Source: Prevotella sp. (lineage in GTDB: Bacteria > Bacteroidota > Bacteroidia > Bacteroidales > Dysgonomonadaceae). Taken from it: 64,000 bases of DNA. Within the stretch, counting starts at the first letter, position 1; each line of letters starts with the position of its first letter. The position numbers and the translations under genes were made by a program. Location of the stretch: contig JAITVV010000011.1 of assembly GCA_031285625.1 (NCBI GenBank), positions 1 through 64,000 of the forward strand, read 5' to 3'. The notes under the pieces were generated by a model that was not told the origin of the DNA, did not search any database, and saw only the letters and a list, made by a program, of their open reading frames with translations. This document shows positions 24,379 through 47,575 of this stretch, piece after piece.

Positions 24379-25578
24379 ATGAATAAACTATATATATTCT
24401 TCATTATAATATTGTGTTCTAACATATTATATGCACAAGACAAACCTGTATATAAACATTCCGAATTAGACATTATTGTCAACAATGTCAAAGAGCAATA
24501 TATTCCCGATAAAAGAATAAAAGTTTTTGATGTAAAAGTCGATGATAGCAACAGAAGACCAACTCTACAAGGAGTAACTTCCGATGTAACTGCATATAAT
24601 GAAGTGATCAGACAAGCCAAAGAAGCTTACGGATCGGACTTTGTAGATAAAATAAAATTATTACCTGAGAGTGACTTGGGAGATAAAACATATGGTGTAA
24701 TCACTCTATCGGTTGCAGATATACGCGTCGAAGGCAAATTTTCGGCAGAGATGGCCACTCAGGCTACACTAGGAACCCCAATCAGAATACTGCAAAAAGA
24801 CAGATGGAGCCGGATACAGACTCCCGACGGATATATAGCATGGACACAGGAGATAAACTACCAACCAATGACAAAACCGGAATATGAAAGCTGGAAAAAA
24901 TCTGAAAAGGTAATATTCACAGACTATTTTGGTTTCTCATATAAAGAACCGGATACAAAAAGCCAAACTGTATCTGATCTGGTTAGTAATAATATCATGA
25001 AACTTGAAGGAGATAGTGGAGACTTTTACAAAGTTTCATATCCCGACGGCCGTATTGGTTATATCTTAAAAAATCAGAGCAAACCTTACAATGAATGGCT
25101 AGCTTCTGTTAACATTACAGGAGATAGTTTTGTACAAAAAGCTTATACACTGATGGGAATCCCATATGTATGGGGAGGAACATCTGTTAAAGGAATGGAC
25201 TGTAGCGGGTTTACTAAAACAATAATGCTCATGCATGGCATCATACTCATGCGCGACGCCTCACAACAAGCATATACGGGGATTCCTGTAGATATAAGCA
25301 AAGGATATAAAAACCTACAAGTAGGAGATCTTATGTTCTTTGGTAAAAAAGCAGAAAAAGATAAAAAGGAACGTGTACGTCATGTTGCCTTTTATATAGG
25401 CAATAATAAATTTATTCATGCTTCGGGATATATCAGAATAAGCAGCCTAAACCCTGCAGACCCTGATTATGATGAAACAAACACTAAAGAATTTATCAGG
25501 GCATCACGTATTATCGGAGCTGTAGATAAGGAAGGATCAGGCATCTGGTCTATTTCAGGTAATTCTTTTTACAAATAA
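24379..25578 (+). CDS. NlpC/P60 peptidoglycan endopeptidase with SH3b-like domains
   Basis: A 399-aa secreted protein. ATG 24379 starts a signal peptide (MNKLYIFFIIILCSNILYAQ); an earlier in-frame TTG lies inside the promoter box. Two SH3b-like segments (about 110-250) precede the catalytic domain, where C275 ('GMDCSGFT'), H335 ('VRHVAFYIG') and H347 ('FIHASG') form the triad. Bacterial relatives (YkfC type) cleave gamma-D-Glu|meso-DAP bonds in wall peptides that have a free N-terminal L-Ala. The dipeptide epimerase follows after 17 nt, the same pairing as B. subtilis ykfB-ykfC. Confidence 0.93.
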   Translation: MNKLYIFFIIILCSNILYAQDKPVYKHSELDIIVNNVKEQYIPDKRIKVFDVKVDDSNRRPTLQGVTSDVTAYNEVIRQAKEAYGSDFVDKIKLLPESDLGDKTYGVITLSVADIRVEGKFSAEMATQATLGTPIRILQKDRWSRIQTPDGYIAWTQEINYQPMTKPEYESWKKSEKVIFTDYFGFSYKEPDTKSQTVSDLVSNNIMKLEGDSGDFYKVSYPDGRIGYILKNQSKPYNEWLASVNITGDSFVQKAYTLMGIPYVWGGTSVKGMDCSGFTKTIMLMHGIILMRDASQQAYTGIPVDISKGYKNLQVGDLMFFGKKAEKDKKERVRHVAFYIGNNKFIHASGYIRISSLNPADPDYDETNTKEFIRASRIIGAVDKEGSGIWSISGNSFYK

Positions 25579-25595
25579 ACCTAATACTATAAATC

Positions 25596-26741
25596 ATGCC
25601 TCAATCAAGACGGAAATTTCTAAAAGCGGCTGCATTTACAGCCATTGGAACAGGAATTTTAGCAGGAAATCCTTTAGAAGCATTTTCCTTGAATAACAAG
25701 AAAACAGTTTCTCTGAATAAGAAAATGAAGCTAAGCTTCAAATCTTATGATTTACAGTTGCGTCATGTATTCACAATAGCCAATTCATCACGCACCACAA
25801 CCCCTGTTGTGCTGACAGAAATCACATATGATGGCATAACCGGCTATGGGGAAGCATCCCTCCCACCCTATTTGGGAGAAACACAGGCCTCCGTAATCGA
25901 ATTTCTAAAAAAAGTAAATCTGGAACAATTCTCGAGTCCATTCGAACTGGAAGATATACTTAACTATATAGACAAAATAACAGAAAACAATACTGCTGCA
26001 AAAGCATCAATCGACATTGCTTTGCACGATCTGGCAGGTAAAATAATGGGACAACCCTGGTATAAAATATGGGGACTTGATAAAGAAAAAACACCGTCTA
26101 CAACCTTCACAATAGGAATTGATACAGATGAAGTTGTAAAACAAAAAACAAGAGAAGCTGCCCCATTGTATAATATACTGAAAGTAAAGCTGGGACGTGA
26201 TAATGATAAGCAGATGATCGAGGCCATACGCAGTGTAACCGATAAACCGATTGCTGTAGATGCCAATCAGGGCTGGAAAGATAAACATTATGCTCTGGAT
26301 ATGATAAACTGGCTGAAAGAACGTGGTATAGTCATGGTAGAGCAACCGATGCCCAAGTATAACCTGGAAGATGCAGCCTGGGTTACAGAGCGGAGTCCAT
26401 TACCTATATTTGCCGACGAATCATTCCAGCGCTTACACGATGTACTGCGGCTAAAAGGGGCATTTACAGGTGTAAATATAAAACTGATGAAATGTACCGG
26501 AATGCGCGAAGCCTGGAAAATCCTTACTGTTGCACGTGCCGCCAATATGCAGGTAATGGTAGGTTGTATGACCGAAACTTCGTGTGCTATATCAGCAGCA
26601 ACACAGATTTCGCCAGCTGTAGACTGGGCAGACCTGGATGGTAATTTACTTATAAGTAACGACTGTTTCAAAGGTGCGACTGTGATAAAAGGCAAACTCC
26701 ATCTGGATGATACTCCGGGTATTGGTGTTGAGAAGCTTTGA
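25596..26741 (+). CDS. Dipeptide (L-Ala-D/L-Glu type) epimerase with twin-arginine signal
   Basis: A 381-aa enolase-superfamily enzyme. Catalytic and metal residues are visible: K196/K198 ('LKVKLG'), D222 ('VDANQGW'), E249 ('VEQPMP'), D274 ('FADESF'), K296 ('NIKLMK') and the D346-L-D348 motif that binds the dipeptide ammonium group. It should epimerise L-Ala-D-Glu released by the upstream NlpC/P60 enzyme, allowing catabolism. Unusually, the N-terminus is a Tat-like signal (SRRKFLKAAAF, residues 4-14), suggesting periplasmic location. Specificity within dipeptide epimerases varies, so the exact substrate is inferred from context. Confidence 0.9.
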   Translation: MPQSRRKFLKAAAFTAIGTGILAGNPLEAFSLNNKKTVSLNKKMKLSFKSYDLQLRHVFTIANSSRTTTPVVLTEITYDGITGYGEASLPPYLGETQASVIEFLKKVNLEQFSSPFELEDILNYIDKITENNTAAKASIDIALHDLAGKIMGQPWYKIWGLDKEKTPSTTFTIGIDTDEVVKQKTREAAPLYNILKVKLGRDNDKQMIEAIRSVTDKPIAVDANQGWKDKHYALDMINWLKERGIVMVEQPMPKYNLEDAAWVTERSPLPIFADESFQRLHDVLRLKGAFTGVNIKLMKCTGMREAWKILTVARAANMQVMVGCMTETSCAISAATQISPAVDWADLDGNLLISNDCFKGATVIKGKLHLDDTPGIGVEKL

Positions 26742-26788
26742 TAATTTTATTTAGATATAAAGATAGATTCCTGTATTTTATTTTGTTC

Positions 26789-26796
26789 TATCTTTG
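26789..26796 (+). promoter_or_regulatory. Candidate -7 box before the BadF-type kinase
   Basis: TATCTTTG matches TAnnTTTG, 32 nt before the GTG start at 26828. It would give the kinase its own transcript besides read-through from the epimerase. Confidence 0.45.
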
Positions 26797-26827: not shown

Positions 26828-27676
26828 GTGATATTATTAGCTGAAAGTGGCTCTACAAAAACCGAATGGTGCATGGTTGACAGAAGTGGAATTGCAGAAC
26901 ATTTCTTGTCGGACGGTGTTAATCCTTTTTTCCAAACAAGAAAAGAGATCAGCCGTTTGATCCGTTTGCAATTGCCACCTATATTCTTTAAGACAAAATT
27001 CAGTAACATTTATTTTTATGGTGCAGGTTGCTCCTCCATTGAAAAGAAAGGTCTTGTAAAGGCATCATTAGAGGCACAATTCAAAACACCATCTATTATC
27101 GAAAGTGATTTACTAGGCTCCGCCCGTTCATTGTTTCAGGATGAAGCAGGCATAGCATGCATTTTAGGCACAGGCTCAAATTCCTGTTTTTATGATGGAA
27201 ATGAAATCGTTAAGAATGTCAAATCATTAGGATATATACTTGGTGATGAAGGAAGTGGAGCATCATTAGGCAAAGCCTTTTTATCCGATTGTTTAAAGGG
27301 ATTGGCACCCAAGGAATTAATAGACCCATTCTATAAGAAATACAAGATCGAGCCAGATGAAATAATGGATTACATCTACTCTAAACCATTCCCCAACAAG
27401 CTTTTATCAGTCCTTTCTTTTTTCTTATACGAATATCTCGAACACCCTTATGTGAACAATCTCGTTCGCAAGAACTTAAGATCTTTTTTTGAAAGAAATA
27501 TTCTACAATATGAATATACTGAATATCCGATACGCTTTGTTGGCTCGGTTGCCAAAATGTATTCATTCATACTGAGGGAAATAGCACAGGACATTGGCAT
27601 CTATATAGATGTGATAATTGAGAACCCTATAAAGGGGCTGATTGAATACCACCGCGAAAACGGGCAATTATTATAA
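26828..27676 (+). CDS. BadF/BadG-type amino-sugar kinase (GlcNAc/MurNAc kinase-like)
   Basis: A 282-aa ASKHA-fold kinase starting at GTG 26828, as judged by alignment with its paralogue at 45886-46746. Phosphate-binding motifs are 'LLAESGSTKTEW' (start), 'IACILGTGSNSCFYDG' and 'GDEGSGASLGK', with a late 'FVGSVAKMY' block. Relatives include NAGK and MurK, which phosphorylate GlcNAc and/or MurNAc at C6. Next to the NlpC/epimerase genes it probably phosphorylates a wall sugar in the cytoplasm; whether it uses GlcNAc while the paralogue uses MurNAc is open. A terminator follows. Confidence 0.85.
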   Translation: MILLAESGSTKTEWCMVDRSGIAEHFLSDGVNPFFQTRKEISRLIRLQLPPIFFKTKFSNIYFYGAGCSSIEKKGLVKASLEAQFKTPSIIESDLLGSARSLFQDEAGIACILGTGSNSCFYDGNEIVKNVKSLGYILGDEGSGASLGKAFLSDCLKGLAPKELIDPFYKKYKIEPDEIMDYIYSKPFPNKLLSVLSFFLYEYLEHPYVNNLVRKNLRSFFERNILQYEYTEYPIRFVGSVAKMYSFILREIAQDIGIYIDVIIENPIKGLIEYHRENGQLL

Positions 27677-27728: not shown

Positions 27729-30700
27729 TTATTTAAATATGAATGAAAGAATATTTGACATAAGATCATATCGTTCTTTCTCATCTTTAATTACCTCAAA
27801 AGGGAATCCCAATACACATGTCTTATAACTTCCATTATAAGCAACACCCGCACTCAGATTATTTTCCGAGTACCTGAATATTGTATAGCTATTCTCGCCC
27901 ACAGGCTCTATGGCATCAGGAGATTCTACAGCATAGCAATCGGCATTCAGCTTCGAATGGAACTCGTAGTTTCCTGATAATACAGGAAGTGGAGAGGCAA
28001 TACATTTCACTTTACCTTCTACAGCAGCCCTGTCAACACGCCATTTATATTTCAATATATCAGCAGCAAACTGCTGATCTTCTTTCAATGGGTTTTCAGT
28101 ATCCCACAAATCAGAGGCTACATAGGCCCCACTAATAAATATATTACCTCCCTGCTTACAATATTCAGTGATCTTATTTTGTAATTCTACAGGGAAAGTT
28201 TTAAACTCAGCAGGATAAACACCTCTTCCTATTTTTGTTTGTTTTTGCTTTCCTAATATAAGGTCAACCAGTTTATATGATTTCATATCCACTTTATCAG
28301 AAACAATGGCATCGCGGCTCGCTGATACAAAAGAATACCCGGCATAGGCAATAGCAGCACCATGAATAGAAGGAAAATCGAATGTATTTCCTGCAACTAC
28401 CTTTGACTCAAAATTAGCATTACTGGCACCAAATCCGGGAGCATCATCATCCATCCAGGGAATAATCCTTCTGAATTCGTACTGGTTACCAATATAATTA
28501 TACTCTACCTTATCAGGCACACCATGATCTATAAAGTCTAAGAATCCTGCAATACTATCTGTAGATGCGAAACTATATGGTGCTGATATACGATCAAAAC
28601 CATTCACAATCAACACTTGTCCTTTTTCGTTTGATTTACGGCAAACCGAGAGTATCTCTGAAGGGAAACTCTCACCTCCGTCATTTACAGCAGCTATTTT
28701 ATAACTATAAATCTTATCTTTTTCTATCGGCAAAATAGCATTGGATTTACTTACAATCTGTCCATTGTCAAAGTCACCATCACCAATACGGGTATAAATA
28801 ATATATCTATCCGGCGTTGCTGTCGGTTCCGACACATCATTCACAGGAACCCAGTTTAGCTTTACTTGTGTATCACCTGAAAATTCTGCACTGAAAGATG
28901 TAACAGGTAATGGTTGTACGACAAAATCATTTCCATATTGATAAGCCACAAACTTAAGCATCCCCTTATAAATAGATCTGCTAACAGTAAACCTGAAACG
29001 TGGATCAAGACCATATTTCATATCAGCAAAATTCTGATGCGATAATAGCTCAAGAAGCATAGTAGGCACATTGGGTACACGGGCCTCACTGTATGACCTG
29101 TTCCACATATGCCTGCGTGTCCATTCCGGTTCGTATTTTAACCGTATATCTTTCACAATCTCATCCATAATAATATTAGTGAGATCGCGGGATGCCCAGC
29201 GAGACTTACCATTATCAAATATCTCTTCATTATGATGTGTCATATATATACCCAATGTCCCAATAATAGAATCATTAAATGTTGTTCCCGCATCGGTATG
29301 AAAGGCCATTGCCAGATCGACCGGAATATTCAACCCATCGCTCTTAGGTAAAACAGAAGAACCTCCTGCTATATAGTTCACCCAGAAGCCCCGGCTTTGA
29401 TAGTCATCGGTATAATCATTCTTACTTTCACTCTTATTATAAACACTATCCGGTGCCCCAGCCCACTGTAGCCAATATCTGGCTCCTTCGGTATACCGCG
29501 GATAACCACTTATTTCCGGTTTATAGTCTATAACAGGAAGCTTCTTTATATTGTCAGCATCAATAGATTCAGAACTTTTTGCATTATCAGTAACTACACC
29601 ACTTGAATGAGGTAAGCGGGCAATATTACCCATTCCCCCTCCTATCTTTACAGCATCTGCCGTAATTACGCGTCCGGCTTTATTACTTTTATTGCTAAGA
29701 ACAATCTTTAGATTTTCATTTACTCCTTTGTCAAAAGAGAAAAAGCCCAGGAATATCCATGTTCCACCACCCATTTTCTGGTTAATACTAAATTCGGTTT
29801 TTCCCCCTAAGTGATAAACTGTATATTTGGCATCATCTGCACTGTTTTTTAAAGTTTTATATGAAATATACACCCCATATTGGCCTTTTTCCGGTATATC
29901 GGGAATCCACTCACAAAAGCTTTCATCACCTTTGCTTATTGTTTTCACCTGACGATAAGAGCCCGATCTGAATGGATTTTCTCCATCCAGATATGACTCT
30001 TTCAAATTTGCAAACCCTTCTAGTAAGCCAGCTGTCCAGCTGTCTTTTCCATTTTCTTCTCTATAAATGGAATTACTTTTAACCTTATCGTTGTCTACTA
30101 TTATTTCATGTTTTTGAATATCTCTTTCGCGTGGCAATAATACATTTGCCCCTGCATTTTCCAGCATAGGTACTAAATATGGCAATACATAACTTTGCGT
30201 ATACAAGTCTTCCACCGTTTGCAGTACACGAGCGCGTTGCCATTCCCATCGTGCCAGTTTTTGCTCATAATACCATCCATGACTCTGCCACAATGCCAAG
30301 TGATGGTTTTCTAATCCTTTCCCGGCTGTATATGGTTTTGATAAATTCCTAATCAGAGGTTTGTCTAATTTATTCGCGAATAAATCTTTTTTGTTTCGGG
30401 CAAATAAAACAAGATCTTCAATCTTTTGAGTATCAGTTATGAGTTCTAATTTATATTTTTTATATTCAGATGGGAGGATATCCCTTATTCGGGAATAGAC
30501 ATCCTCTACATCCTTTTGATTAACAGGTATATATGACAAATTAACTCCGGCAAATAAACTGATTGTTTTCTTTTTTATGTCAACCGAATCTATTTTCACC
30601 TTACCGACAGTTACATCTTTATTAGCAAACCCTGTAAGGTAGTTTCCTATCTCGGAACGAATATGTTCTGAAATATCCTGTGCTTTTATTTCATGGATTG

Positions 30701-30752
30701 AAAAACATGAGATAAATAAAATAGAAGTAAGTAAAGCTAAACTTTTTTTCAT
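27729..30752 (-). CDS. Amidase_3-like peptidoglycan hydrolase with golvesin-like insert, FN3 and C-terminal Rossmann-like domain
   Basis: A 1007-aa secreted protein (signal peptide 1-24, ending IKAQ). A split N-acetylmuramoyl-L-alanine amidase_3 fold can be traced: H158 region ('LWQSHGW'), E182, 'LENAGANVLLPRERD' (198-211), then after an insert 'VDLAMAFHTDAG' (H485) and 'PTMLLELLSHQNF' (E568). The insert at about 238-375 looks like the golvesin/xanthan-lyase beta domain. An FN3 domain (about 635-730) and a Rossmann-like C-terminus follow. These proteins are often labelled 'xanthan lyase'; the amidase motifs argue for wall cleavage. It is the last gene of the susC-susD operon, 68 nt below susD. 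Confidence 0.8.
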   Translation of the reverse strand: MKKSLALLTSILFISCFSIHEIKAQDISEHIRSEIGNYLTGFANKDVTVGKVKIDSVDIKKKTISLFAGVNLSYIPVNQKDVEDVYSRIRDILPSEYKKYKLELITDTQKIEDLVLFARNKKDLFANKLDKPLIRNLSKPYTAGKGLENHHLALWQSHGWYYEQKLARWEWQRARVLQTVEDLYTQSYVLPYLVPMLENAGANVLLPRERDIQKHEIIVDNDKVKSNSIYREENGKDSWTAGLLEGFANLKESYLDGENPFRSGSYRQVKTISKGDESFCEWIPDIPEKGQYGVYISYKTLKNSADDAKYTVYHLGGKTEFSINQKMGGGTWIFLGFFSFDKGVNENLKIVLSNKSNKAGRVITADAVKIGGGMGNIARLPHSSGVVTDNAKSSESIDADNIKKLPVIDYKPEISGYPRYTEGARYWLQWAGAPDSVYNKSESKNDYTDDYQSRGFWVNYIAGGSSVLPKSDGLNIPVDLAMAFHTDAGTTFNDSIIGTLGIYMTHHNEEIFDNGKSRWASRDLTNIIMDEIVKDIRLKYEPEWTRRHMWNRSYSEARVPNVPTMLLELLSHQNFADMKYGLDPRFRFTVSRSIYKGMLKFVAYQYGNDFVVQPLPVTSFSAEFSGDTQVKLNWVPVNDVSEPTATPDRYIIYTRIGDGDFDNGQIVSKSNAILPIEKDKIYSYKIAAVNDGGESFPSEILSVCRKSNEKGQVLIVNGFDRISAPYSFASTDSIAGFLDFIDHGVPDKVEYNYIGNQYEFRRIIPWMDDDAPGFGASNANFESKVVAGNTFDFPSIHGAAIAYAGYSFVSASRDAIVSDKVDMKSYKLVDLILGKQKQTKIGRGVYPAEFKTFPVELQNKITEYCKQGGNIFISGAYVASDLWDTENPLKEDQQFAADILKYKWRVDRAAVEGKVKCIASPLPVLSGNYEFHSKLNADCYAVESPDAIEPVGENSYTIFRYSENNLSAGVAYNGSYKTCVLGFPFEVIKDEKERYDLMSNILSFIFK

Positions 30753-30820: not shown

Positions 30821-32302
30821 TTATCTTGGGTTTTGAGTAATGATACCATTATTTTTATCAATTTCATCTTGAGGTATAGGCAATATTTCATCTCGATTGG
30901 CTACAAATCCTTTAAATAATTGAGGGCCTTTACCAAAACGAACCACATCCCAGAAACGGAATCCTTCCATTGCAAGTTCCAGACGTCTTTCTTTCAGAAT
31001 ATCTTCAACTAACTGATCTCCTGATGATGTAATAGCCGGTAATCCAACCCTGTCGCGCAACAGTTTCAAATACTTCTTCGCCTCCCCTTCGTTCTTTGTT
31101 GCACCTCTGGTACAAGCCTCTGCATAATTTAAATATACCTCAGCCAAACGGATAAGCTGGATATTCAGTGGATTATTTCTAATTTCTTTAGAGCGTTCAC
31201 TTGGAGGCAAATAATATTTTTGATTAAAATAACCAGTTCTGTTACGTTCCAGTTTCGCAAAATCTTCTGCAGACTCCCATGCTTTCAGGTCATCTTCGGT
31301 CAACAAAGTTGCATCTTTTCTCTCTGTATCACCAATTGCATCAAATGCATCTGCCAGAGCCTGATATGGCTGATTGATTCCGTAACCGTAAGTTACTCCG
31401 AACGGCATCATCATCAACACATGGAAATTACCGTTATTACTTGTTGCAGCCGATTGTGAAGGCGAATCGTAATGATTTATCTCCAGAATAGATTCAGTAC
31501 TATGCTCTCCAGCCAAAGTAAACTGATAACCATAATCATCTACAAGTTTGTAATCACCGGATTCTATTACTTTCAATGCAGCCGTTTTAGCTTCATCAAA
31601 CTTTTCTTCATACAGATATACTCTGGAAAGCATTGCATAAGCAGCACCTTGTGTAATACGACCTGCATAATCTGCATAGTTAACTTCAGAGCGACGTGGC
31701 AATGCTGCTGCAGCTGCATTCAGGTCAATTTCAATCTGAGCATATACTTCAGCTTTAGGTGTCCGGGGTTTCCCTTTATCCGCAACAGTAGGAGTTGCAG
31801 TCAATAAAGGTACATCACCAAAACATTTTACTAATTCGTGATAGAAATATCCTCTGAGAAAAAGAGCCTCGCCTAGTAATGCATTTTTCTTGTAAACAGA
31901 GAATAATGCATCATCCATCTTGTTAATGCCATCTATGGTTTGATTAGCCTTATTTATAGCCCTGTAGCATAACATATATCTATTTAATATACGTCCATTA
32001 TCAGCAGGATAATCGTAAGCTTCCATACGTGCATACCCGGAAACGTCGGCATCGGAACCACTATAAGTAGCGTCATCGGATAATATATCACCAAATGCCC
32101 ACAATGTCCATGTATACCGGTAGTCTTTCATATCTGAATAAGCTGCGGTCAAAGATTGGAAAGCTTCTTCTTCTGTTTTGAAAAAATTATCGGTAGTAAG
32201 GCTTCCTAACTTACTTTTATCTAGGGCATCATCACAGCTATTCATCAGGAACATACTGAGTCCGATAAATAAACATAATATTTTATTTGTTTTCATTGTC
32301 AT
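30821..32302 (-). CDS. SusD/RagB-family outer-membrane lipoprotein (first pair)
   Basis: A 493-aa surface lipoprotein that forms the lid of the SusC channel. The lipobox cysteine lies in 'LMNSCDDALDKS' after a short signal peptide. TPR-like helices ('EALFLRGYFYHELVKCFGDV') and the C-terminal 'ERRLELAMEGFRFWDVVRFG' are typical of SusD. It starts 12 nt after susC and is followed by an amidase-like gene rather than a glycosidase, which points to cell-wall fragments as ligand. The start may be Met1 or Met3. Confidence 0.93.
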   Translation of the reverse strand: MTMKTNKILCLFIGLSMFLMNSCDDALDKSKLGSLTTDNFFKTEEEAFQSLTAAYSDMKDYRYTWTLWAFGDILSDDATYSGSDADVSGYARMEAYDYPADNGRILNRYMLCYRAINKANQTIDGINKMDDALFSVYKKNALLGEALFLRGYFYHELVKCFGDVPLLTATPTVADKGKPRTPKAEVYAQIEIDLNAAAAALPRRSEVNYADYAGRITQGAAYAMLSRVYLYEEKFDEAKTAALKVIESGDYKLVDDYGYQFTLAGEHSTESILEINHYDSPSQSAATSNNGNFHVLMMMPFGVTYGYGINQPYQALADAFDAIGDTERKDATLLTEDDLKAWESAEDFAKLERNRTGYFNQKYYLPPSERSKEIRNNPLNIQLIRLAEVYLNYAEACTRGATKNEGEAKKYLKLLRDRVGLPAITSSGDQLVEDILKERRLELAMEGFRFWDVVRFGKGPQLFKGFVANRDEILPIPQDEIDKNNGIITQNPR

Positions 32303-39829: not shown

Positions 39830-41125
39830 ATGGAACCAAAAGTAAGTGTCGGCATCTTATGGAATAACAGAATATCATTTATTCTGAGTTCTGGTTACTT
39901 ATATCAGGGAAAACAAGTCTCTGACGTAAATACTGTTTCATACATAGATGGAAAAATATTATGGAATGGGAAAACGTATGATGAATTATATTTTGAACCA
40001 ACAGCTAATAATGCCTCATTTATCATTAAGGATGTTGTTATTGGTATTAATTTTCATTGGGAACGCAAAGAAGACCAGGAATTTCAGGGAGCACTGAAAT
40101 TGATAGTTGAAAACAATATGATAACAGCTATCAACATCATCAAAGTAGAAGACTACCTTACCAGTGTTATATCATCAGAAATGAGTGCGACGGCTTCGCT
40201 GGAGCTACTTAAAGCACATGCTGTAATATCGCGTAGCTGGCTTTTGGCACAGATAGAAAAGAATAAAGAAATTGTTGCAAGCAAAGAACAATACACAACA
40301 TTTACCGAAACCGAAAATGAACGTATCCGCTGGTATGACAGGGAAGACCATACAAACTTTGATGTATGTGCCGATGACCATTGTCAGCGATACCAAGGAA
40401 TAACACGTACTTTTGCCAATATAGAAGTGGTAAAGAAAGCCATAAACGAAACAAGAGGACAGGTATTAAAATCGGAAAATAAAATATGCGATGCCCGTTT
40501 TTCCAAATGCTGCGGAGGAATTGCAGAAGAGTTTCAAAACTGTTGGGAAGATATCAAATTCCCCTATCTGGTAAAACTCAGGGATGACGATAAAATTCAG
40601 GATATACCCGATCTTACACAGGAAAGCGAATCTGTAAAATGGATTCAAACCCGCCCTTCGGCTTTCTGTAATACCAAAGACAAAAAAATACTAGAACAGG
40701 TCTTAAATAATTACGATCAGGAAACGACTGATTTTTATCGTTGGCAAGTTGTTTATAGCCAAAAAGAATTATCTGAACTGGCTTATAAACGCTCAGGAAT
40801 AGATTTTGGAACCATAGAAGAGTTGATTCCTGTTGAGAGGGGTACATCAGGACGCCTTATAAAGCTAAAGATAGTAGGTTCAAAAAAAACTATGACCATT
40901 GGTAAAGAACTGGAAATACGCCGTACATTATCTACCTCGCACTTATATAGCTCTGCATTTATTGTTGACAAAAAAGATGATAAATTCATCCTTACTGGTG
41001 GAGGTTGGGGGCATGGTGTAGGACTATGTCAGATAGGTGCAGCAGTTATGGGCGAAAAAGGATATTCATACGATAAGATTTTATTGCATTACTATATTGA
41101 TGCAACCATTGAGAATTTATATTAA
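39830..41125 (+). CDS. SpoIID/LytB-domain protein lacking a signal peptide
   Basis: A 431-aa SpoIID-type protein. The family region includes 'VEDYLTSVISSEMSATASLE', with E117 in the position of the catalytic glutamate of SpoIID, 'AHAVISRSWLLAQ', 'RFSKCCGGIAEEFQNCW' and the C-terminal 'TGGGWGHGVGLCQIGAAVMG'. SpoIID cleaves peptide-free glycan strands as a lytic transglycosylase. The first 30 residues are polar and show no signal peptide or membrane helix, so a cytoplasmic location is predicted, which is odd for this fold. It follows DUF4922 by 5 nt. Confidence 0.88.
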   Translation: MEPKVSVGILWNNRISFILSSGYLYQGKQVSDVNTVSYIDGKILWNGKTYDELYFEPTANNASFIIKDVVIGINFHWERKEDQEFQGALKLIVENNMITAINIIKVEDYLTSVISSEMSATASLELLKAHAVISRSWLLAQIEKNKEIVASKEQYTTFTETENERIRWYDREDHTNFDVCADDHCQRYQGITRTFANIEVVKKAINETRGQVLKSENKICDARFSKCCGGIAEEFQNCWEDIKFPYLVKLRDDDKIQDIPDLTQESESVKWIQTRPSAFCNTKDKKILEQVLNNYDQETTDFYRWQVVYSQKELSELAYKRSGIDFGTIEELIPVERGTSGRLIKLKIVGSKKTMTIGKELEIRRTLSTSHLYSSAFIVDKKDDKFILTGGGWGHGVGLCQIGAAVMGEKGYSYDKILLHYYIDATIENLY

Positions 41126-41321: not shown

Positions 41322-43193
41322 ATGAAAGAAAATAAGAAATCGCCGTGGGCATGGATACCGTCACTTTATCTGGCAGAAGGGTTACCATATGTTGCAGTAA
41401 TGACCATTTCGGTGATCATGTACAAGCGCATGGGTATATCCAATACCGATATAGCACTATATACCAGCTGGTTGTACCTACCTTGGGTTATTAAACCATT
41501 CTGGAGTCCCTTCGTTGATTTACTGAAAACAAAGCGCTGGTGGATTGTAACCATGCAAATACTCATTGGCGCAGGGTTTGCCGGTATAGCATTTACAATA
41601 CCCCTACCCTTCTTCTTTCAGGCTACTTTAGCATTCTTTTGGCTATTAGCTTTTAGCTCGGCAACACACGATATTGCTGCCGACGGATTCTATATGTTGG
41701 GATTAAATACGAATCAGCAAGCCAAATATGTAGGTATAAGAAGTACATTTTACCGTGTTGCTACCATTATGGGACAAGGTGTACTTATTATTCTGGCTGG
41801 TTTTTTAGAAAGTACCTCAGGGTGTGAACCTGTAAAAATAAATATAGATGCCTCGCCACAATATACACAGTCGACACTAATCTTACCACAAACACCAGAT
41901 ATTGCAGCTCAGGATGTAGAAATTCATTTTATAGTAGACAAAGATATTGTGCAGATAGGTACACATGGTGTTGATAAAGACAGTCTGCAGTCTTTTTTAG
42001 ATAAGGTAATAGCCTTAAACCAGGATAACGGATTTGTGGCAAAAGAACATACTTCCGATGCAAATATAACTGAAAAGAAAGAAAGCGTATGGACAAGGAA
42101 TGTATCTAAACCCTTCGGTGACTGGATAAAAAGTAACTTTGGAGAGAAACGCTATGTTACAGAATCGGAACATACAGGGAATGTTGCTGTTGCTGCAGTA
42201 AGACTATCCAAACAGCCAGAAGATAATAAAGAAATGATACTAAACACAACCATGAACAGAGGTGATAATAGTATAGCCCTGTTACATGGTGAACGTCTGG
42301 CTTTCAACAATACAAACTGGAACAAACCAGCTTATCTTATTTTCCAGATCGATCCGAAACTAACTACTACCAGTACAGCCGAATATAAAGGACTGTCGGG
42401 AAATATACCATTTGCATGGTCTATCACATTCTTTGTATTGGCCGGATTGTTTATATTCTTTAGTTTCTATCACAGGGTAGTACTCCCTAAACCAGATTCA
42501 GACAAGGCTCATGCACATATAACAGCGAAATCTATTTTTACTGAGTTTGGTCAAACATTCAAAAGTTTCTTTAAGAAACCACAGGCTGCCGCCGCTATAT
42601 TCTTTATGCTTACCTTCCGCTTTTCAGAAGCGCAATTGCTTAAACTCATCAATCCGTTCCTACTAGATTCGAGGGACATCGGAGGGTTAGGTTTAACGAC
42701 AGGTGAAGTAGGACTTGTATATGGAACAATTGGTATTATAGGGCTTACATTAGGCGGTATTATCGGAGGTTTTGTTGCTGCCAAAGGCGGACTAAAAAGA
42801 TGGGTATGGCCTATGACACTAAGCATGTTGCTGACTATCGCCACTTTCCTCTATTTGAGCTTCACACAAACAGATAGCCTGATCATCATCAATATTTGCG
42901 TATTTATTGAACAATTCGGGTATGGATTCGGATTTACAGCATATATGCTATACCTTATCTATTTCTCGGAAGGAACACATAAAACAGCTCATTATGCCTT
43001 CTGTACCGGATTTATGGCGTTGGGTATGATGGTTCCGGGTATGTTTGCCGGATGGCTGCAAGAACAATTAGGATATAACCACTTCTTTATTTGGGTAATG
43101 ATATGCTCTATTGTTCCTATCATCGCTGTTTCGCTGTTGAAGATCGATCCTAATTATGGAAAGGCGAAAGAAGAAACTGGAAATGAACAATAA
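41322..43193 (+). CDS. ampG: AmpG-like MFS muropeptide/MurNAc transporter with large periplasmic insert
   Basis: A 623-aa MFS permease. Helices 1-5 occupy residues 10-165, with the AmpG-like 'YLAEGLPYVAV', 'LPWVIKPFWSPFVD' and 'SSATHDIAADGFY'. Then comes an unusual soluble segment of about 195 residues (165-360), followed by the remaining helices (365-610). By helix counting the insert lies in the periplasmic loop between TM5 and TM6. AmpG proteins bring anhydro-muropeptides or, in MurT-type relatives, MurNAc across the inner membrane. Ordinary AmpG proteins are about 430-490 aa. Its place between SpoIID-like and NamZ genes supports wall-fragment import. Confidence 0.87.
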   Translation: MKENKKSPWAWIPSLYLAEGLPYVAVMTISVIMYKRMGISNTDIALYTSWLYLPWVIKPFWSPFVDLLKTKRWWIVTMQILIGAGFAGIAFTIPLPFFFQATLAFFWLLAFSSATHDIAADGFYMLGLNTNQQAKYVGIRSTFYRVATIMGQGVLIILAGFLESTSGCEPVKINIDASPQYTQSTLILPQTPDIAAQDVEIHFIVDKDIVQIGTHGVDKDSLQSFLDKVIALNQDNGFVAKEHTSDANITEKKESVWTRNVSKPFGDWIKSNFGEKRYVTESEHTGNVAVAAVRLSKQPEDNKEMILNTTMNRGDNSIALLHGERLAFNNTNWNKPAYLIFQIDPKLTTTSTAEYKGLSGNIPFAWSITFFVLAGLFIFFSFYHRVVLPKPDSDKAHAHITAKSIFTEFGQTFKSFFKKPQAAAAIFFMLTFRFSEAQLLKLINPFLLDSRDIGGLGLTTGEVGLVYGTIGIIGLTLGGIIGGFVAAKGGLKRWVWPMTLSMLLTIATFLYLSFTQTDSLIIINICVFIEQFGYGFGFTAYMLYLIYFSEGTHKTAHYAFCTGFMALGMMVPGMFAGWLQEQLGYNHFFIWVMICSIVPIIAVSLLKIDPNYGKAKEETGNEQ

Positions 43194-43197
43194 ATAT

Positions 43198-43270
43198 TTT
43201 GTCATGCTGAGGTAACGAAGCATCTCGTCTCCTTTCAGGCAAGAAATTTCACTCCGTTCAAAATGACAAA
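43198..43270 (+). repeat. Short derivative of the REP/MITE-like repeat
   Basis: 73 bp starting TTTGTCATGCTGAGG and ending CCGTTCAAAATGACAAA. The ends match the family but the interior is different and shorter. An ATG at 43263 belongs to this repeat, not to the following gene's signal peptide. Confidence 0.7.
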
Positions 43271-43283
43271 AAATAAAAAAGTT

Positions 43284-44519
43284 ATGAAAAAAACATCAAT
43301 TATATTATCTGTATTCTGCTTACTCTCATTCACCTGTTTTGCACAAAAGATAAAAATCAAAACAGGGATTGAGGTACTGAAAGAACAGAACTTTAAAGTA
43401 CTGGAAGGCAAGCGTGTAGGACTTATCACCAATCCTACCGGGGTAGATAATAATATGAAATCTACAATTGACATCTTACACGAAGCCAGAAATGTGCAAT
43501 TAGTAGCCCTTTTCGCTCCCGAACATGGAGTGAGAGGTGATGCCCATGCCGGAGACCATGTGGATAATGTAAAAGATCCAAACACCGGACTCCCGGTATA
43601 CTCATTACATGGAAAAACTAAAATTCCCACTGCAGATATGCTCAAGGGAATTGATGCTTTGGTGTATGATATTCAGGATATAGGTTGCCGCTCATTTACC
43701 TATGTAAGCACAATGGGGCTTGGGATGCAGGCCGCTGCTGAAAACAATATCGAATTTATTGTCCTCGACAGGCCAAACCCTCTTGGAGGATTAAAGGTAG
43801 AAGGTGGCTTGGTTGACGAAAAATTTATTTCCTTTGTAAGCCAATTCAAAATACCTTATGTATACGGATTGACTTGTGGCGAACTGGCTCAGTTGCTTAA
43901 CGGAGAAAATATGCTCAGTAAACAATGTAAGCTACAAGTAGTAAAAATGAAAAGTTGGAAACGCAAAATGACATATGAACAAACAGGACTGCAATGGATC
44001 CCATCGTCTCCGCATATCCCCCAGCCCATTTCTGCAGTGATGTATCCTGTATCGGGCATTTTGGGTGAACTAGGTTATATGTCTATTGGTGTTGGATATA
44101 CAATCCCGTTTCAGATGTTTGCTACCGAATGGATAAAAGCGGACGAACTGGCAAACAGTCTCAACAGACTACGTTTACCCGGAATTCATTTCCGGCCTCT
44201 CTACATCAAACCATTCTACTCTGTGGGGCAAGGTAAACAACTGGAAGGGGTACAGGTACATATAATGGATTATGAAAAAGCCCGCTTATCTGAAATACAA
44301 TTCTATGTTATGCAGGAAGTAGCACGGTTATACCCTGATAAAGCAGTATTTGATAATGCAAATGATAAACGCTACAGAATGTTTGATCAGGTGTGCGGCA
44401 GTGATTATGTCAGGCTTACTTTTGCAAAGAATAATAAATTCGAAGATATTAAAGATTTTTGGTACAAAGAAACCGAACCATTTAAAAAGATATCAAAGAA
44501 ATACTATCTGTATAAATAA
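43284..44519 (+). CDS. namZ: NamZ-type exo-beta-N-acetylmuramidase (DUF1343), copy 2
   Basis: A 411-aa protein. I take ATG 43284 because it begins the signal peptide (MKKTSIILSVFCLLSFTCFAQ); the ATG 21 nt upstream lies in a repeat end. Hallmarks are 'VGLITNPTGVDNN', 'LFAPEHGVRGDAHAGDHV', 'DALVYDIQDIGCRSFTYVST' and 'LDRPNPLGG'. It shares the DUF1343 fold with copy 1 but differs in many loop regions, including 'SSPHIPQP' against 'PSPNLPNM'. It is expected to free terminal MurNAc in the periplasm for the AmpG-like transporter next to it. Confidence 0.91.
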   Translation: MKKTSIILSVFCLLSFTCFAQKIKIKTGIEVLKEQNFKVLEGKRVGLITNPTGVDNNMKSTIDILHEARNVQLVALFAPEHGVRGDAHAGDHVDNVKDPNTGLPVYSLHGKTKIPTADMLKGIDALVYDIQDIGCRSFTYVSTMGLGMQAAAENNIEFIVLDRPNPLGGLKVEGGLVDEKFISFVSQFKIPYVYGLTCGELAQLLNGENMLSKQCKLQVVKMKSWKRKMTYEQTGLQWIPSSPHIPQPISAVMYPVSGILGELGYMSIGVGYTIPFQMFATEWIKADELANSLNRLRLPGIHFRPLYIKPFYSVGQGKQLEGVQVHIMDYEKARLSEIQFYVMQEVARLYPDKAVFDNANDKRYRMFDQVCGSDYVRLTFAKNNKFEDIKDFWYKETEPFKKISKKYYLYK

Positions 44520-44716: not shown

Positions 44717-45889
44717 ATGACCCAGAAACCCAATAATAATAGATTATTATCTCTTGATATACTAAGGGGAATCACCATTGCCGGCATGATAATGGTAAAC
44801 AATCCTGGATCATGGAATTATGTATATGAGCCGTTAAGGCATGCTGCATGGAACGGGCTTACCCCTACCGACTTGGTTTTTCCATTCTTCATGTTCATTA
44901 TGGGGATATCTACCTTTATTTCTTTACGGAAATTCAATTTCGAGTTTAGTAAGCCTACCTTATTCAAAATAATAAAAAGAACGATTATTATATTCCTTAT
45001 TGGTCTTGGTTTAGGTTGGCTATCTCTTTCATTCAGAACATTCGGTAACCTATCCGGTGAAGAATTAGGGTTCTTCGAAAGATTCTTCAAAGCCATTACC
45101 GATTTTGAACATATACGCATACTGGGTGTAATGCAACGCCTAGCCATTACATACGGAGCTACAGCCTTGATAGCTATTCTGGTTAAGCATAAATATATAC
45201 CTTATATTATTGTGGTTACACTATTCGGCTATTTCTTGCTCCTGCTATTTGGAAACGGATTCGAATTTAGTGAAGATAATATTATTTCTGTTCTCGACAG
45301 AGCTATACTTGGAACGAATCATATGTACAAGGATAGTGGTCTGGCAATTGATCCGGAAGGATTATTAAGTACAATTCCGGCCATCTGTCATGTATTGATA
45401 GGATTCTGTTGCGGAGAACTGCTATTGTCAACAAAGGATAATCACGAACGGATACAACGACTATTTATAATTGGTGCTATAATGACATTTCTTGGTTTTC
45501 TACTTAGTTATGGTTGCCCGATCAATAAAAAGATATGGTCACCGACATTTGTTATAGCTACATGCGGACTGGCAGCTACACTATTAGCTTTATTAATATG
45601 GATAATAGACATCAAGGGATATAAAAAATGGAGTGTATTCTTTGAATCATTCGGTGTGAACCCTCTGTTTATATATGTAGCAGCAGGCGTATTCTCGGTA
45701 TTATTAGCCAATATTCAATTCACATATTATGGAAACTTAATAAGTATTAAAGATTTCGCATATCAAAAATGTATACATCCACTTTTCGGAAATTATTTAG
45801 GATCATTGGTGTATGCATTATTATTTGTCGGATTCAACTGGGTGATAGGTAATATATTGTATAAAAAGAAAATCTATATAAAGATATGA
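44717..45889 (+). CDS. NagX/HGSNAT-like membrane acyltransferase (DUF5009 type)
   Basis: A 390-aa integral membrane protein with about ten helices. The N-terminal 'RLLSLDILRGITIAGMIMVN' and 'HAAWNGLTPTDLVFPFFMFI' match the YeiB/heparan-alpha-glucosaminide N-acetyltransferase family. Bacterial NagX proteins of this kind sit in GlcNAc-utilisation loci and have been proposed as inner-membrane transport or acetylation proteins. Its end overlaps the kinase start by 4 nt (ATGA), so it is coupled to the MurK-like and MurQ genes. Possible roles are re-N-acetylation of de-acetylated wall sugars or sugar uptake; neither is proven. Confidence 0.85.
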   Translation: MTQKPNNNRLLSLDILRGITIAGMIMVNNPGSWNYVYEPLRHAAWNGLTPTDLVFPFFMFIMGISTFISLRKFNFEFSKPTLFKIIKRTIIIFLIGLGLGWLSLSFRTFGNLSGEELGFFERFFKAITDFEHIRILGVMQRLAITYGATALIAILVKHKYIPYIIVVTLFGYFLLLLFGNGFEFSEDNIISVLDRAILGTNHMYKDSGLAIDPEGLLSTIPAICHVLIGFCCGELLLSTKDNHERIQRLFIIGAIMTFLGFLLSYGCPINKKIWSPTFVIATCGLAATLLALLIWIIDIKGYKKWSVFFESFGVNPLFIYVAAGVFSVLLANIQFTYYGNLISIKDFAYQKCIHPLFGNYLGSLVYALLFVGFNWVIGNILYKKKIYIKI

Positions 45890-46746
45890 TATTACTAGCG
45901 GACGGAGGATCTACCAAAGTCGATTGGCGTTTGGTAGATGGTAGCAAAGAGATAAAACAGATTTCCACAAAAGGGTCTAATCCGTTTTTTCGTACGAGAG
46001 AAGATATTAGTGACGAAATAAAGGCTGTTATAAAACCGGCTGTGGAAAACTATGTAATCGATGCTGTATTCTTTTTTGGAGCAGGGTGTGCCACTCCTGA
46101 AAAAAGTATGGTAATAAAGAATGCAATAGCCGATAATATAAAAACTCCCTATATAGAAGTTGACAGTGATCTGCTTGCTGCGGCAAAAGGCCTCTGTGGT
46201 ACAAATGAAGGCATAGCCTGTATCCTGGGTACAGGATCAAACTCGTGCTTCTATGACGGAATAGCCATAAAAGAAAATATCTCACCTTTGGGTTATATAC
46301 TTGGGGATGAGGGAAGCGGTGCTGTCCTGGGCAGACTGTTTATAGGAGCATGTTTGAAAAACCAACTAACAAAAGGACTTAAAGAGAAGTTCCTCAAGGA
46401 GTTTGATCTTACACCGGCTACTATTCTGGATACTGTATATAAACAACCAATGGCTAACCGCTTTCTGGCAAGTCTCTCTCCTTTCCTGATAGAGAACATA
46501 CAGGACGAAAGCGTCTATAATCTTGTCTATAATGCATTTAAAGATTTCTTTGTAAAGAACGTAATGCAATATGACTATAAAAATAATGATGTACATTTTA
46601 CAGGATCTGTGGCATACCACTACAAAGACATATTACATAAAGTAGGTTCTGACATCGGCATCAAAATAGGTACTATTGCACAATCGCCAATGGAAGGCCT
46701 TATCAGATACTATGCAGGAGAATGTCAAACAATATATAACAGATAA
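45886..46746 (+). CDS. murK: MurK-like N-acetylmuramate/N-acetylglucosamine kinase
   Basis: A 286-aa BadF-type ASKHA kinase. Motifs are 'LLADGGSTKVDW', 'IACILGTGSNSCFYDG', 'ILGDEGSGAVLGR' and 'FTGSVAYHY'. It is a paralogue of the kinase at 26828-27676, but has the classic D-G-G start where that one has E-S-G. It lies 4 nt before murQ, so MurNAc is its most probable substrate, producing MurNAc-6-P for the etherase. Overlap with the acyltransferase implies translational coupling. Confidence 0.88.
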   Translation: MILLADGGSTKVDWRLVDGSKEIKQISTKGSNPFFRTREDISDEIKAVIKPAVENYVIDAVFFFGAGCATPEKSMVIKNAIADNIKTPYIEVDSDLLAAAKGLCGTNEGIACILGTGSNSCFYDGIAIKENISPLGYILGDEGSGAVLGRLFIGACLKNQLTKGLKEKFLKEFDLTPATILDTVYKQPMANRFLASLSPFLIENIQDESVYNLVYNAFKDFFVKNVMQYDYKNNDVHFTGSVAYHYKDILHKVGSDIGIKIGTIAQSPMEGLIRYYAGECQTIYNR

Positions 46747-46750
46747 TAAA

Positions 46751-47575
46751 ATGACTTTTGTAAAAATCACAGAACAACCTTCACTATATGATAATCTGGA
46801 AGATAAATCCGTTTTGGAGTTACTGACAGATATAAACAACGAAGATAAGAAAGTCGCACTTGCAGTAGAAAAAGCAATACCACAGATAGAAAAGTTGGTT
46901 TTACAAATAGTTCCACGGATACAGCAGGGAGGGCGTATTTTCTATATGGGAGCAGGAACCAGCGGTCGTCTCGGTGTGCTTGATGCATCAGAGATTCCAC
47001 CTACATTTGGCATGCCCAATACGCTGGTTATAGGACTAATAGCCGGAGGCGATACTGCATTACGCAATCCGGTGGAAAAAGCTGAAGATAATATGGAAAC
47101 CGGATGGAAAGAATTAGAAGCTCATAATATAAATGAGAAAGATACTGTGATAGGTATTGCGGCTTCAGGTACTACCCCGTATGTAGTAGGAGTTCTCCGT
47201 GAAGCCCGCAAACATGGGATACTCACAGCATCTATATCGAGTAATCCCGATTCCCCGATTGCACAGGAAGCAGAGATTCCTATCGAGATGATTGTCGGTC
47301 CGGAGTTTGTTACAGGTAGTTCTCGTATGAAGTCGGGTACAGGGCAGAAAATGATACTGAATATGATAACTACATCAACAATGATAAAACTCGGCCGTGT
47401 AAAGGGTAACCGCATGGTTAACATGCAATTATCCAATGCAAAATTGGTAGACAGAGGTACGCGTATGGTATCAGAAGAACTCGGTCTTGATTACGATCAG
47501 GCCAACAGGTTATTACTATTACACGGCTCAGTAAAAAAGGCTGTTGATGCATACAAAGCAGACAACAAGCAGTGA
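46751..47575 (+). CDS. murQ: N-acetylmuramic acid 6-phosphate etherase
   Basis: A 274-aa SIS-fold lyase that splits MurNAc-6-P into GlcNAc-6-P and D-lactate. ATG 46751 is chosen because an upstream TTG lies inside the kinase gene and adds no homologous sequence. The sugar-phosphate site 'FYMGAGTSGRLGVLDASEIP' is present, with E81 and E112 matching the two catalytic glutamates of MurQ. It closes the salvage operon and is followed by a terminator. It is the most diagnostic gene for MurNAc catabolism in this window. Confidence 0.96.
   Translation: MTFVKITEQPSLYDNLEDKSVLELLTDINNEDKKVALAVEKAIPQIEKLVLQIVPRIQQGGRIFYMGAGTSGRLGVLDASEIPPTFGMPNTLVIGLIAGGDTALRNPVEKAEDNMETGWKELEAHNINEKDTVIGIAASGTTPYVVGVLREARKHGILTASISSNPDSPIAQEAEIPIEMIVGPEFVTGSSRMKSGTGQKMILNMITTSTMIKLGRVKGNRMVNMQLSNAKLVDRGTRMVSEELGLDYDQANRLLLLHGSVKKAVDAYKADNKQ

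Follow-up and report, generated by a model that had tools for sequence, protein, structure and literature searches.

The window, i.e., the whole 64,000-nucleotide stretch of DNA analyzed here, carries salvage genes for both the sugar and the peptide halves of peptidoglycan (Table 1). Comparison with Pfam, NCBIfam and PDB profiles located all fifteen genes that an earlier note on this DNA had named. The gene that it called "amidase_3-like" does match Amidase_3, a domain split here by a golvesin domain. NagZ, NagA/NagB and LdcA, which the note listed as absent, were likewise not found when Pfam was run on 40 of the 61 window ORFs of 100 aa or longer. The start of the NlpC/P60 gene was placed at ATG 24379, and ATG 46751 is the more likely start of murQ than TTG 46676 or ATG 46712. 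The TAnnTTTG sequences between susC and namZ1 are presumably candidate Bacteroidota -7 elements.

Table 1. Features of the peptidoglycan salvage region, with the match or motif that characterizes each.
Feature	Positions	Strand	Match or motif
NlpC/P60 peptidase with SH3 domains	24379..25578	+	Pfam NLPC_P60 5.9e-21
Dipeptide epimerase, twin-arginine-type signal	25596..26741	+	PDB 3iji E 1.3e-174
K1058-type sugar kinase (BadF-type)	26828..27676	+	PDB 8oqk E 1e-110, 8ow7 E 1.9e-110
Exported Amidase_3-type protein, golvesin-split, fn3-like stretch	27729..30752	-	Tanf_08345 "xanthan lyase" type
SusD-like lipoprotein	30821..32302	-	Pfam SusD_RagB 8.1e-32
SusC-like TonB-dependent importer, class III	32315..35413	-	TIGR04056 966.6 bits, cut-off 368.25
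susC/namZ1 divergent region, 737 bp	35414..36150		TAnnTTTG elements, both strands
NamZ1 exo-muramidase family, exported	36151..37317	+	Pfam NamZ_N 2.2e-77, NamZ_C 6.1e-33
GT2 protein, without export signal	37343..38800	+	Pfam 1.9e-22
DUF4922, Ap4A phosphorylase/GalT-like, without export signal	38892..39824	+	CxxC and HxHxQ invariant
SpoIID/LytB-domain protein, without export signal	39830..41125	+	TIGR02669 175.7 bits, cut-off 83.3
AmpG-family permease	41322..43193	+	TIGR00901 2.3e-46, 158.3 bits, below cut-off of 350
NamZ2 exo-muramidase family, exported	43263..44519	+	Pfam NamZ_N 1.2e-84
MurT/NagX-like membrane protein	44717..45889	+	NF046061 7.2e-39, below its cut-off
MurK-type MurNAc kinase	45886..46746	+	PDB 8oqw E 2.5e-99, 8ow9 E 3.8e-99
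MurNAc-6-phosphate etherase MurQ	46751..47575	+	TIGR00274 316.1 bits, cut-off 302

The sugar half is already known, since it corresponds to the operon Tanf_08345-08385 of Tannerella forsythia described in four papers (PMC5388701, PMC7670621, PMC5790795, PMC10465942), a match that the earlier note had missed. In T. forsythia ATCC 43037 (L215), the genes for the amidase, GT2, DUF4922, SpoIID, AmpG, NamZ, MurT, MurK and MurQ follow the same order as in the window, which contains the ordered core GT2-DUF4922-SpoIID-AmpG-NamZ-MurT-MurK-MurQ of the Tannerella-type operon; a K1058-type kinase and a SusC/SusD pair lie alongside in both. However, only the window has NamZ1 ahead of GT2, and it further differs in its amidase gene, which lies on the opposite strand with SusC/SusD, in the adjoining NlpC-epimerase pair, the AmpG insertion, the class of SusC, and the presence of MurA in the genome. 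Regulation by a GppX-type hybrid two-component protein is a further trait of Tannerella-type operons. According to these sources, the T. forsythia operon forms one transcript, its AmpG, MurT, MurK and MurQ have been tested (PMC5388701, PMC7670621, PMC5790795), deletion mutants and muropeptide assays exist for it (PMC7670621, PMC5790795), and the organism grows on foreign sacculi, for which it requires the AmpG of the operon (PMC7670621).

The wall operon of Bacteroides (B. fragilis, L176; B. salyersiae, L175) shares NamZ1, GT2, DUF4922, SpoIID, AmpG, NamZ2, MurT, MurK and MurQ with the window, and B. fragilis also has the golvesin amidase. Its additional genes encode a sodium symporter, a metallophosphoesterase-propeller protein and an FAD/Fe-S D-lactate-dehydrogenase-like protein, assignments that were made on relatives and carried over by homology. 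The Bacillus subtilis cluster murQ-murR-murP-amiE-nagZ-namZ has NamZ and MurQ in common with the window, and a beta-lactamase-family hydrolase in congeners of the window is a further likeness; however, B. subtilis uses PTS import in place of MurT/AmpG/MurK and has no SusC/SusD. As in polysaccharide utilization loci, a SusC/SusD tandem stands beside matching degradative genes, but no adjacent regulator (HTCS, SusR or ECF sigma) was found when the 20 ORFs from 21.6 to 52.3 kb were scanned, and the substrate of the pair is one that we infer.

The homology to T. forsythia extends to the individual sugar-side proteins. The first kinase has no Pfam match; its nearest solved structure is that of T. 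forsythia K1058 (8oqk), and it is 60% identical to the kinase adjoining the T. forsythia operon. For the second kinase, the nearest structure is 1zxo, a "conserved hypothetical protein" (1.8e-101), with T. forsythia MurK (8oqw) close behind, and the protein shares 54% identity with the frame that lies between MurT and MurQ in T. forsythia. The assignment of 8oqk and 8oqw to K1058 and MurK follows PMC10465942, in which some structure codes appear as 8QQ where 8OQ is meant. The amidase gene, whose product shares 58% identity with its T. forsythia counterpart of the Tanf_08345 type, matches Golvesin_C alone at the normal Pfam threshold; at a lax threshold, all 32 orthologues match Amidase_3 (best E 1.4e-6), the window member at 0.0014 with 19.1 bits against a cut-off of 27, and residues H158, E181, H485 and E568 are invariant across 32 aligned rows. 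Signal-like N-termini are found in 18/18 NamZ1 and 41/41 NamZ2 homologues. The AmpG of the window contains a soluble insertion of ~195 residues (about residues 165-360), and the MurT/NagX-like protein shares ~63% identity with its positional counterpart in T. forsythia, MurT.

Among the named loci of relatives, all 27 large ORFs directly after NamZ2 are homologous, and Pfam assigned one of them to an FAD/Fe-S oxidase type; this protein, which lies between NamZ2 and MurT, may be the counterpart to the D-lactate made by MurQ. The same assignment rules out NagZ as the identity of the ~950-aa Bacteroides gene at this position. GH3 genes occur at 20 places elsewhere in the genome of the window. MurA scores over its cut-off in this genome, and its presence rules out MurNAc auxotrophy. 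For GlmU, no match exceeded the cut-off.

On the peptide side, the NlpC/P60 protein resembles the solved "dipeptidyl-peptidase VI" structures 3npf (E 3.8e-99) and 3pvq (E 2e-98), which we take to be of the BtYkfC type, and 3iji, matched by the epimerase, is presumably BT1313. Homologues of both members of the YkfB/YkfC wall-peptide pathway are thus present in the window. This pathway is cytoplasmic in Bacillus and E. coli, whereas the window epimerase starts with MPQSRRKFLK, a Tat-type signal as judged from its sequence; wall peptides are therefore probably processed in the periplasm. Of 27 epimerase homologues, 21 carry an RR pair in their first 20 residues; the other six have no N-terminal extension, and one of these is fused to NlpC. 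The Tat-type signal is unremarked in the accessible portions of the literature examined. Of the 16 congener genomes with an identified epimerase, 12 have the NlpC-epimerase pair adjoining wall-salvage genes, some of them despite a split locus (G207, G219, G204), and the same arrangement is seen again in the distant Draconibacterium (L203) and in G038. Of 41 order-sample neighborhoods, one (G038) has the epimerase close to the core, as does one of 42 named loci, the flanks of the latter spanning only 10 kb and being too short to capture the congener epimerases as well.

Between NamZ1 and AmpG lie the three genes for GT2, DUF4922 and SpoIID. The GT2 domain occupies residues 245-373, preceded by ~240 residues without a family assignment, and its profile match to chondroitin synthase (2z87/2z86, E 9.4e-18) covers the GT2 part only. 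DUF4922 has invariant C70, C73, H102, H148, H150 and Q152 in 27 rows, and we take its CxxC/His and HxHxQ motifs to form a Zn-type, GalT/Ap4A phosphorylase active site. It matches PDB 4i5t (E 1.4e-5), and Ap4A_phos_N is matched by 26 of 27 members at E values of up to 5 (best 8.3e-9), the window member scoring 17.4 bits against a cut-off of 23.1. In the literature covered, DUF4922 is named in two papers, both of which, judging by title and the opening of the abstract, deal with plant GDP-L-galactose phosphorylase. In SpoIID, E117 is invariant in 67/67 sequences and is judged by motif to equal E88, the essential glutamate of B. subtilis SpoIID (PMC6635528).

Export was assessed by a crude hydropathy threshold combined with inspection of N-termini. 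By this measure, 56 of 60 unfused SpoIID orthologues fall below the threshold, and the four above it, inspected singly, have N-termini like the rest and unlike a signal peptide; among the GT2 homologues, 4/74 exceed it by hydropathy alone. The SpoIID gene begins 5 bp past DUF4922, and the two are fused in seven named loci (L198, L200, L208, L209, L212, L218, L229). The N-termini and the fusions argue against a SpoIID acting outside on amidase-stripped chains. Relative to SpoIID/LytB lytic transglycosylases, the domain and its glutamate are kept, but the extracytoplasmic location is not found. Since SpoIID, GT2 and DUF4922 are without export signals and fusions occur in some genomes, the data suggest a cytoplasmic module, a trait that is unremarked in the literature examined, as far as its text was accessible.

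The three genes might instead constitute a separate glycan-biosynthesis unit, e.g., for surface glycosylation, that happens to be encoded in the same operon. The likeness of GT2 to chondroitin synthase is compatible with such a role, as are GT2-DUF4922 pairs without nearby AmpG or SpoIID (G023, G059, L201, L214, L233), the separate contigs that hold the GT2 homologue and the DUF4922 match in G246 and G249, and the absence of SpoIID from some AmpG-keeping loci, e.g., G133, L170 and L173. The neighbors of the AmpG-less pair in L201, two-component regulators, were uninformative as to its role. Against this, of 42 well-bounded named loci, 39 carry AmpG and 36 carry SpoIID, the SpoIID glutamate is kept in all 67 sequences, and the domain itself points to peptidoglycan, so that we regard a separate unit as possible yet somewhat unlikely.

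The importer behaves differently from the rest of the locus. When the best 3-8 first-look SusC candidates per genome were scored, close orthologues of the window SusC were found at the wall locus in only two other genomes of 101 in the family (G206, G211) and elsewhere in a third (G241), ruling out the window SusC/SusD pair as a conserved part of the locus. Nevertheless, a SusC of one of several non-orthologous classes lies at most 9 kb from DUF4922 in 11 of 16 congeners (10 of the 15 fetched plus the window), which are genomes of one genus and thus not independent. Around epimerase-anchored control loci, the figure is 2 of 19, an imperfect control since G204, G207 and G219 themselves adjoin Mur genes and G204 is one of the two positives; in the order sample, it is 6 of 41, about the control rate, with some loci of both sets truncated by the end of a contig and with G125 and G030 holding weak SusC-like frames that fell below the linkage threshold. 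The proposal that the peptide, importer and sugar blocks are conserved together thus appears to hold within the genus (12/16 for NlpC-epimerase, 11/16 for SusC of mixed classes) but not across the order (1/41 and 6/41).

The sister species G203 and G220 share 22 genes that are 83-99% identical, yet their SusC and SusD proteins are only 41% and 31% identical. Since the SusC of G220 is 72% identical to that of L170, a Tannerellaceae MAG, which is inside the range of the G220/L170 core genes, and since L170 is in its core proteins roughly as distant from the genus of the window as from a neighboring one, this pair fits replacement of either SusC/SusD. The wall-locus SusCs of G216 and G217 share 62% and 60% identity with the T. 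forsythia SusC that neighbors K1058. The site thus seems to exchange importers, with different species holding different SusC/SusD classes at the same position.

A rival account is that the pair is a generic glycan or peptide importer, unrelated to peptidoglycan, that settled in a roomy divergent region, and that its turnover reflects escape from phages or bacteriocins. SusC genes are abundant (21-122 first-look candidates per listed congener genome), the classes are non-orthologous, and the order-wide frequency near the core resembles the control, all of which fit this account. However, the same classes recur elsewhere with the golvesin amidase, kinases or GH9-CE4/GHL10, and one is common to the T. 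forsythia locus. Where class I SusC lies more than 10 kb from DUF4922 or is unlinked to it, GH9-CE4, GHL10, golvesin amidase, a kinase of the set or Mur genes were found at all 12 places looked at, out of 33 such genomes, by markers drawn from the same loci and hence partly circular; golvesin amidase, K1 or Mur genes account for only 5 of the 12. Class II SusC was not found in the order sample (0/198, with the best three candidates per genome scored). Additionally, in both close pairs with different SusC/SusD (G203/G220 and G216/G212), the inner-membrane AmpG comes next to the Sus genes in divergence (83% and 70% identity), an argument weakened by G213/G202, in which the second half of AmpG is only 68% identical even though G213 has no SusC/SusD there. 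On balance, an importer unrelated to the wall appears unlikely.

Among the papers listed by literature searches, none was found by title or abstract opening to tie SusC/SusD to peptidoglycan, subscription papers being mostly missing from the literature covered, and the accessible parts of two reviews (PMC13209645, PMC11382707) make no mention of it. The peptidoglycan utilization locus proposed in the earlier note stands as regards the joint salvage genes, while import of wall fragments by SusC/SusD is still something that we infer.

Taken together, the locus is likely to be a Tannerella-type locus for peptidoglycan salvage in the form found in Dysgonomonas, the genus to which the organism probably belongs, with the SusC/SusD pair as an exchangeable cassette at one site. 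SusC/SusD would bind wall fragments and bring them over the outer membrane. Judging by family, the golvesin-split Amidase_3 protein would then remove stem peptides in the periplasm or on the cell surface, where NamZ1 and NamZ2 would free MurNAc from chain ends. The freed peptides would be cut by NlpC/P60 and the L-Ala-D-Glu epimerized, probably in the periplasm. MurNAc would enter via MurT and GlcNAc-MurNAc disaccharides via AmpG, as shown in T. forsythia and presumed here by homology, after which MurK would phosphorylate MurNAc and MurQ would yield GlcNAc-6-P and D-lactate. GT2, DUF4922 and SpoIID are predicted to act on AmpG-imported material in the cytoplasm. The locus probably takes apart the cell walls of other bacteria, the sugars being burned or reused, and it would serve nutrition rather than auxotroph rescue because MurA is present. 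That its main task is to remodel or recycle the wall of the cell itself, as AmpG and MurNAc-6-P etherase do in other bacteria and as MurA in the genome would allow, is improbable given that an outer-membrane importer, exported exo-muramidases and an amidase share the locus and that T. forsythia needs the AmpG of this operon type to grow on foreign sacculi (PMC7670621).

Two things are new here: an outer-membrane importer that is not the same in sister species, and a conserved set of three enzymes that appear to be cytoplasmic. As a speculative and rather doubtful extension, GT2, DUF4922 and cytoplasmic SpoIID might form a new intracellular route that converts AmpG-imported GlcNAc-MurNAc species into nucleotide-activated amino sugars, or builds and trims a soluble wall-like oligosaccharide, in place of simple hydrolysis, while wall loci trade SusC/SusD with AmpG changing in step. 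T. forsythia is reported to have no glmS, glmU, murA or murB (PMC5790795), and such a route, if true, could help explain its wall-precursor supply. The trio would then represent a new wall-recycling step with homologues in B. fragilis and T. forsythia. If the importer reading is true, peptidoglycan would be another glycan that Bacteroidota take up via dedicated, exchangeable SusC/SusD pairs, which would bear on wall-feeding among gut and plaque bacteria and on the immune-active muropeptides that remain.

By strand and spacing, the genes of the locus fall into what look like three transcription units (table), with 737 bp between susC and namZ1, and family searches of the window's ORFs bore out the gene families assigned in the earlier note. 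The genome (4.84 Mb in 96 contigs) holds no GlmU match above the cut-off of that family. In the amidase of the second unit, the Amidase_3 match is broken by a golvesin domain, followed by an fn3-like stretch; at a lax threshold the family is matched by 32/32 orthologues (best E 1.4e-6), the window member scoring below the Pfam cut-off. Four residues are invariant among the orthologues and, judging from the roles known in the family, could form the zinc-binding and catalytic set.

Features of the locus, its surroundings and related loci
Feature	Position	Strand	Remark
Radical SAM DNA-repair pair TIGR03915/TIGR03916	21636-23665		Borders the locus; several congeners have it next to NlpC-epimerase as well
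Block 1: NlpC/P60, epimerase, kinase	within 24379-47575	+	Apparent unit
Block 2: SusC, SusD, amidase	within 24379-47575	-	Apparent unit
Block 3: NamZ1, GT2, DUF4922, SpoIID, AmpG, NamZ2, MurT, MurK, MurQ	within 24379-47575	+	Apparent unit
AmpG	41322-43193	+	Soluble insertion of ~195 residues, about residues 165-360
HAD hydrolase, then 3-keto-disaccharide hydrolase-family protein	47611-49728	-, then +	Both lie beyond MurQ; in most of the congeners fetched, the second of them comes after MurQ or NamZ2/AmpG
Dpp5 dipeptidyl-peptidase adjoining second SusC/SusD pair	50108-58193	+ (Dpp5), - (SusC/SusD)	Perhaps a peptide-uptake unit
MurA	contig C75 of the same genome, 34674-35969		Outside the window
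Nucleotidyltransferase, 246 aa	contig C75, 60775-61374		Same contig as MurA; weak GlmU match
FAD/Fe-S D-lactate-dehydrogenase-like gene	L176 (B. fragilis):14827-17694		After NamZ2; also in 26 other named loci (Bacteroides, relatives)
Different cargo at the amidase-NamZ1 site	L113:10109-16325, L114:2549-13827 (congener G216)		GH9-CE4 fusion, creatininase-like, SIS_2, MFS, ROK kinase, GHL10, PBP4B-like hydrolase, SusD-like_2, metallophosphoesterase-propeller protein

In Tannerella forsythia, Tanf_08345-08385 are described as a single GppX-regulated transcript (PMC5388701), whose AmpG is reported to be required for growth on sacculi and GlcNAc-MurNAc species (PMC7670621); MurK is characterized there as a MurNAc 6-kinase (PMC5790795), and K1058 as a protein that binds MurNAc with slow turnover (PMC10465942). 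The corresponding locus of strain ATCC 43037 has the gene order of the window's sugar half, with SusC/SusD adjoining K1058. Its MurK lies at the expected place, is 54% identical and is overlapped by an over-long MurQ frame; the window's two kinases are likewise one of the K1058 and one of the MurK type. Since gene order and both kinase types are shared, the sugar half is an already known salvage system, found here in a new genus.

For the peptide half, structure searches match the epimerase to 3iji-type entries and the NlpC/P60 protein to 3npf/3pvq. A twin-arginine-type signal opens the epimerase, and 21/27 homologues have RR among their first 20 residues. YkfB and YkfC of Bacillus are cytoplasmic, whereas the wall-peptide step in the window is predicted to be probably periplasmic. 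The D-lactate-dehydrogenase-like gene of related loci, of which one member was typed by Pfam, would be fitting for the D-lactate made by MurQ.

DUF4922 is present in 43/198 genomes sampled from the order (one, G182, by a weak, broken match), 85/101 of the family and 17/25 of the genus. Gene order was compared across 41 order-level neighbourhoods, 22 family-level ones and 80 named loci, sets that overlap (G133 and G019 are in both of the former, and several of the named loci come from genomes already included there). Being the best 80 of 575 confirmed relatives, the named loci are weighted toward close ones; the 42 of them that have 7.5 kb or more of flank in each direction contained GT2 (42), AmpG (39), SpoIID (36), MurK (34), MurQ (31), NamZ2 (30), MurT (29), amidase (29), SusC or SusD-like (12), epimerase (1) and NlpC (1). 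In G246 and G249, the GT2 homologue and the DUF4922 match lie on different contigs, which speaks against a universal pair. Sugar and peptide halves are linked at genus level: of the 16 congeners found to have the epimerase (window counted; G214 and G215 not fetched at the epimerase site, G217 cut), 12 carry it next to genes for wall salvage, at the main locus in the window, G202, G203, G206, G208, G212, G213, G216 and G220, and at a second site with Mur genes in G204, G207 and G219. In G019 it is not beside such genes.

Relatives differ in the importer at the locus. A SusC is found no more than 9 kb from DUF4922 in 10/15 fetched congeners (without G215) plus the window, and in 6/41 order-level neighbourhoods; of 19 epimerase-anchored control loci (20 fetched, one without anchor), 2 have one. 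The closest relatives of the window's SusC are in G211 (73%), G206 (70%) and G241 (57%), the next being 45% identical; the SusCs of the remaining wall loci belong to other classes. The sister species G203 and G220 share 22 genes at 83-99% identity, versus 41% for SusC and 31% for SusD. L170, a MAG titled Tannerellaceae in which the pair directly precedes GT2, has a SusC with 72% identity to the G220 protein. As core proteins of L170 and of the family share 62-83% identity, this likeness may reflect common descent, with replacement on the G203 side. The T. forsythia SusC shares 62% identity with the SusC of G216 and 60% with that of G217.

Because the class comparison took in wall-locus SusCs only, genome-wide searches were added, with few candidates scored per genome; these placed class I in 40/101 family and 5/198 order genomes, and class II in 8/101 and 0/198, respectively. 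In 10 of the 43 genomes having class I, it is at most 10 kb away from DUF4922; among the remaining 33, all 12 places fetched carry GH9-CE4, GHL10, amidase, a kinase of the set or Mur genes, five of them (G207, G213, G246, G249, G270) amidase, the K1058-type kinase or Mur genes. The cargo at the amidase-NamZ1 site of congeners may represent a second amino-sugar route.

The AmpG insertion, absent from T. forsythia and most Bacteroides loci, varies faster than the membrane parts. In both close pairs with differing SusC/SusD, G203/G220 and G216/G212, AmpG is the most divergent protein after the Sus proteins (83% and 70% identity), with differences both in the membrane parts and in the insertion, so that outer- and inner-membrane importers may, from these comparisons, change together. 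Against this, a sample of two pairs is small, the insertion is fast-evolving in general, and half of AmpG is divergent between G213 and G202, yet G213 is without SusC/SusD there.

From its N-termini, the GT2-DUF4922-SpoIID trio looks cytoplasmic: a crude hydropathy test for an export signal, excluding fused SpoIIDs and matches beginning late in the query, was passed by 0/73 DUF4922, 4/60 SpoIID and 4/74 GT2 proteins, and by 18/18 NamZ1, 41/41 NamZ2 and 26/26 amidases. SpoIIDs of B. subtilis and Waddlia are described as having signal peptides (PMC6635528). Fusions of DUF4922 with SpoIID occur in seven of the named loci (among the best 80 of 575) as well as in G025, G008 and G111, and fusions with GT2 in G059, G139 and G135; all three are fused in G126. 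The first two genes of the trio are annotated in PMC5388701 as glycosyltransferases and the third as an amidase enhancer. DUF4922 resembles Ap4A phosphorylase (PDB 4i5t, E 1.4e-5) and has an invariant set of CxxC, H and HxHxQ. In SpoIID, E117 is kept in 67/67 sequences whose alignment exceeds 350 residues. For the GT2 domain the nearest match is the two-domain polymerase chondroitin synthase (E 9.4e-18); one guess is that the protein's N-terminal ~240 residues, themselves without a match, form another, degenerate GT domain. What makes the locus interesting is that its importer differs from one relative to the next, together with the unexplained, cytoplasmic-looking trio.
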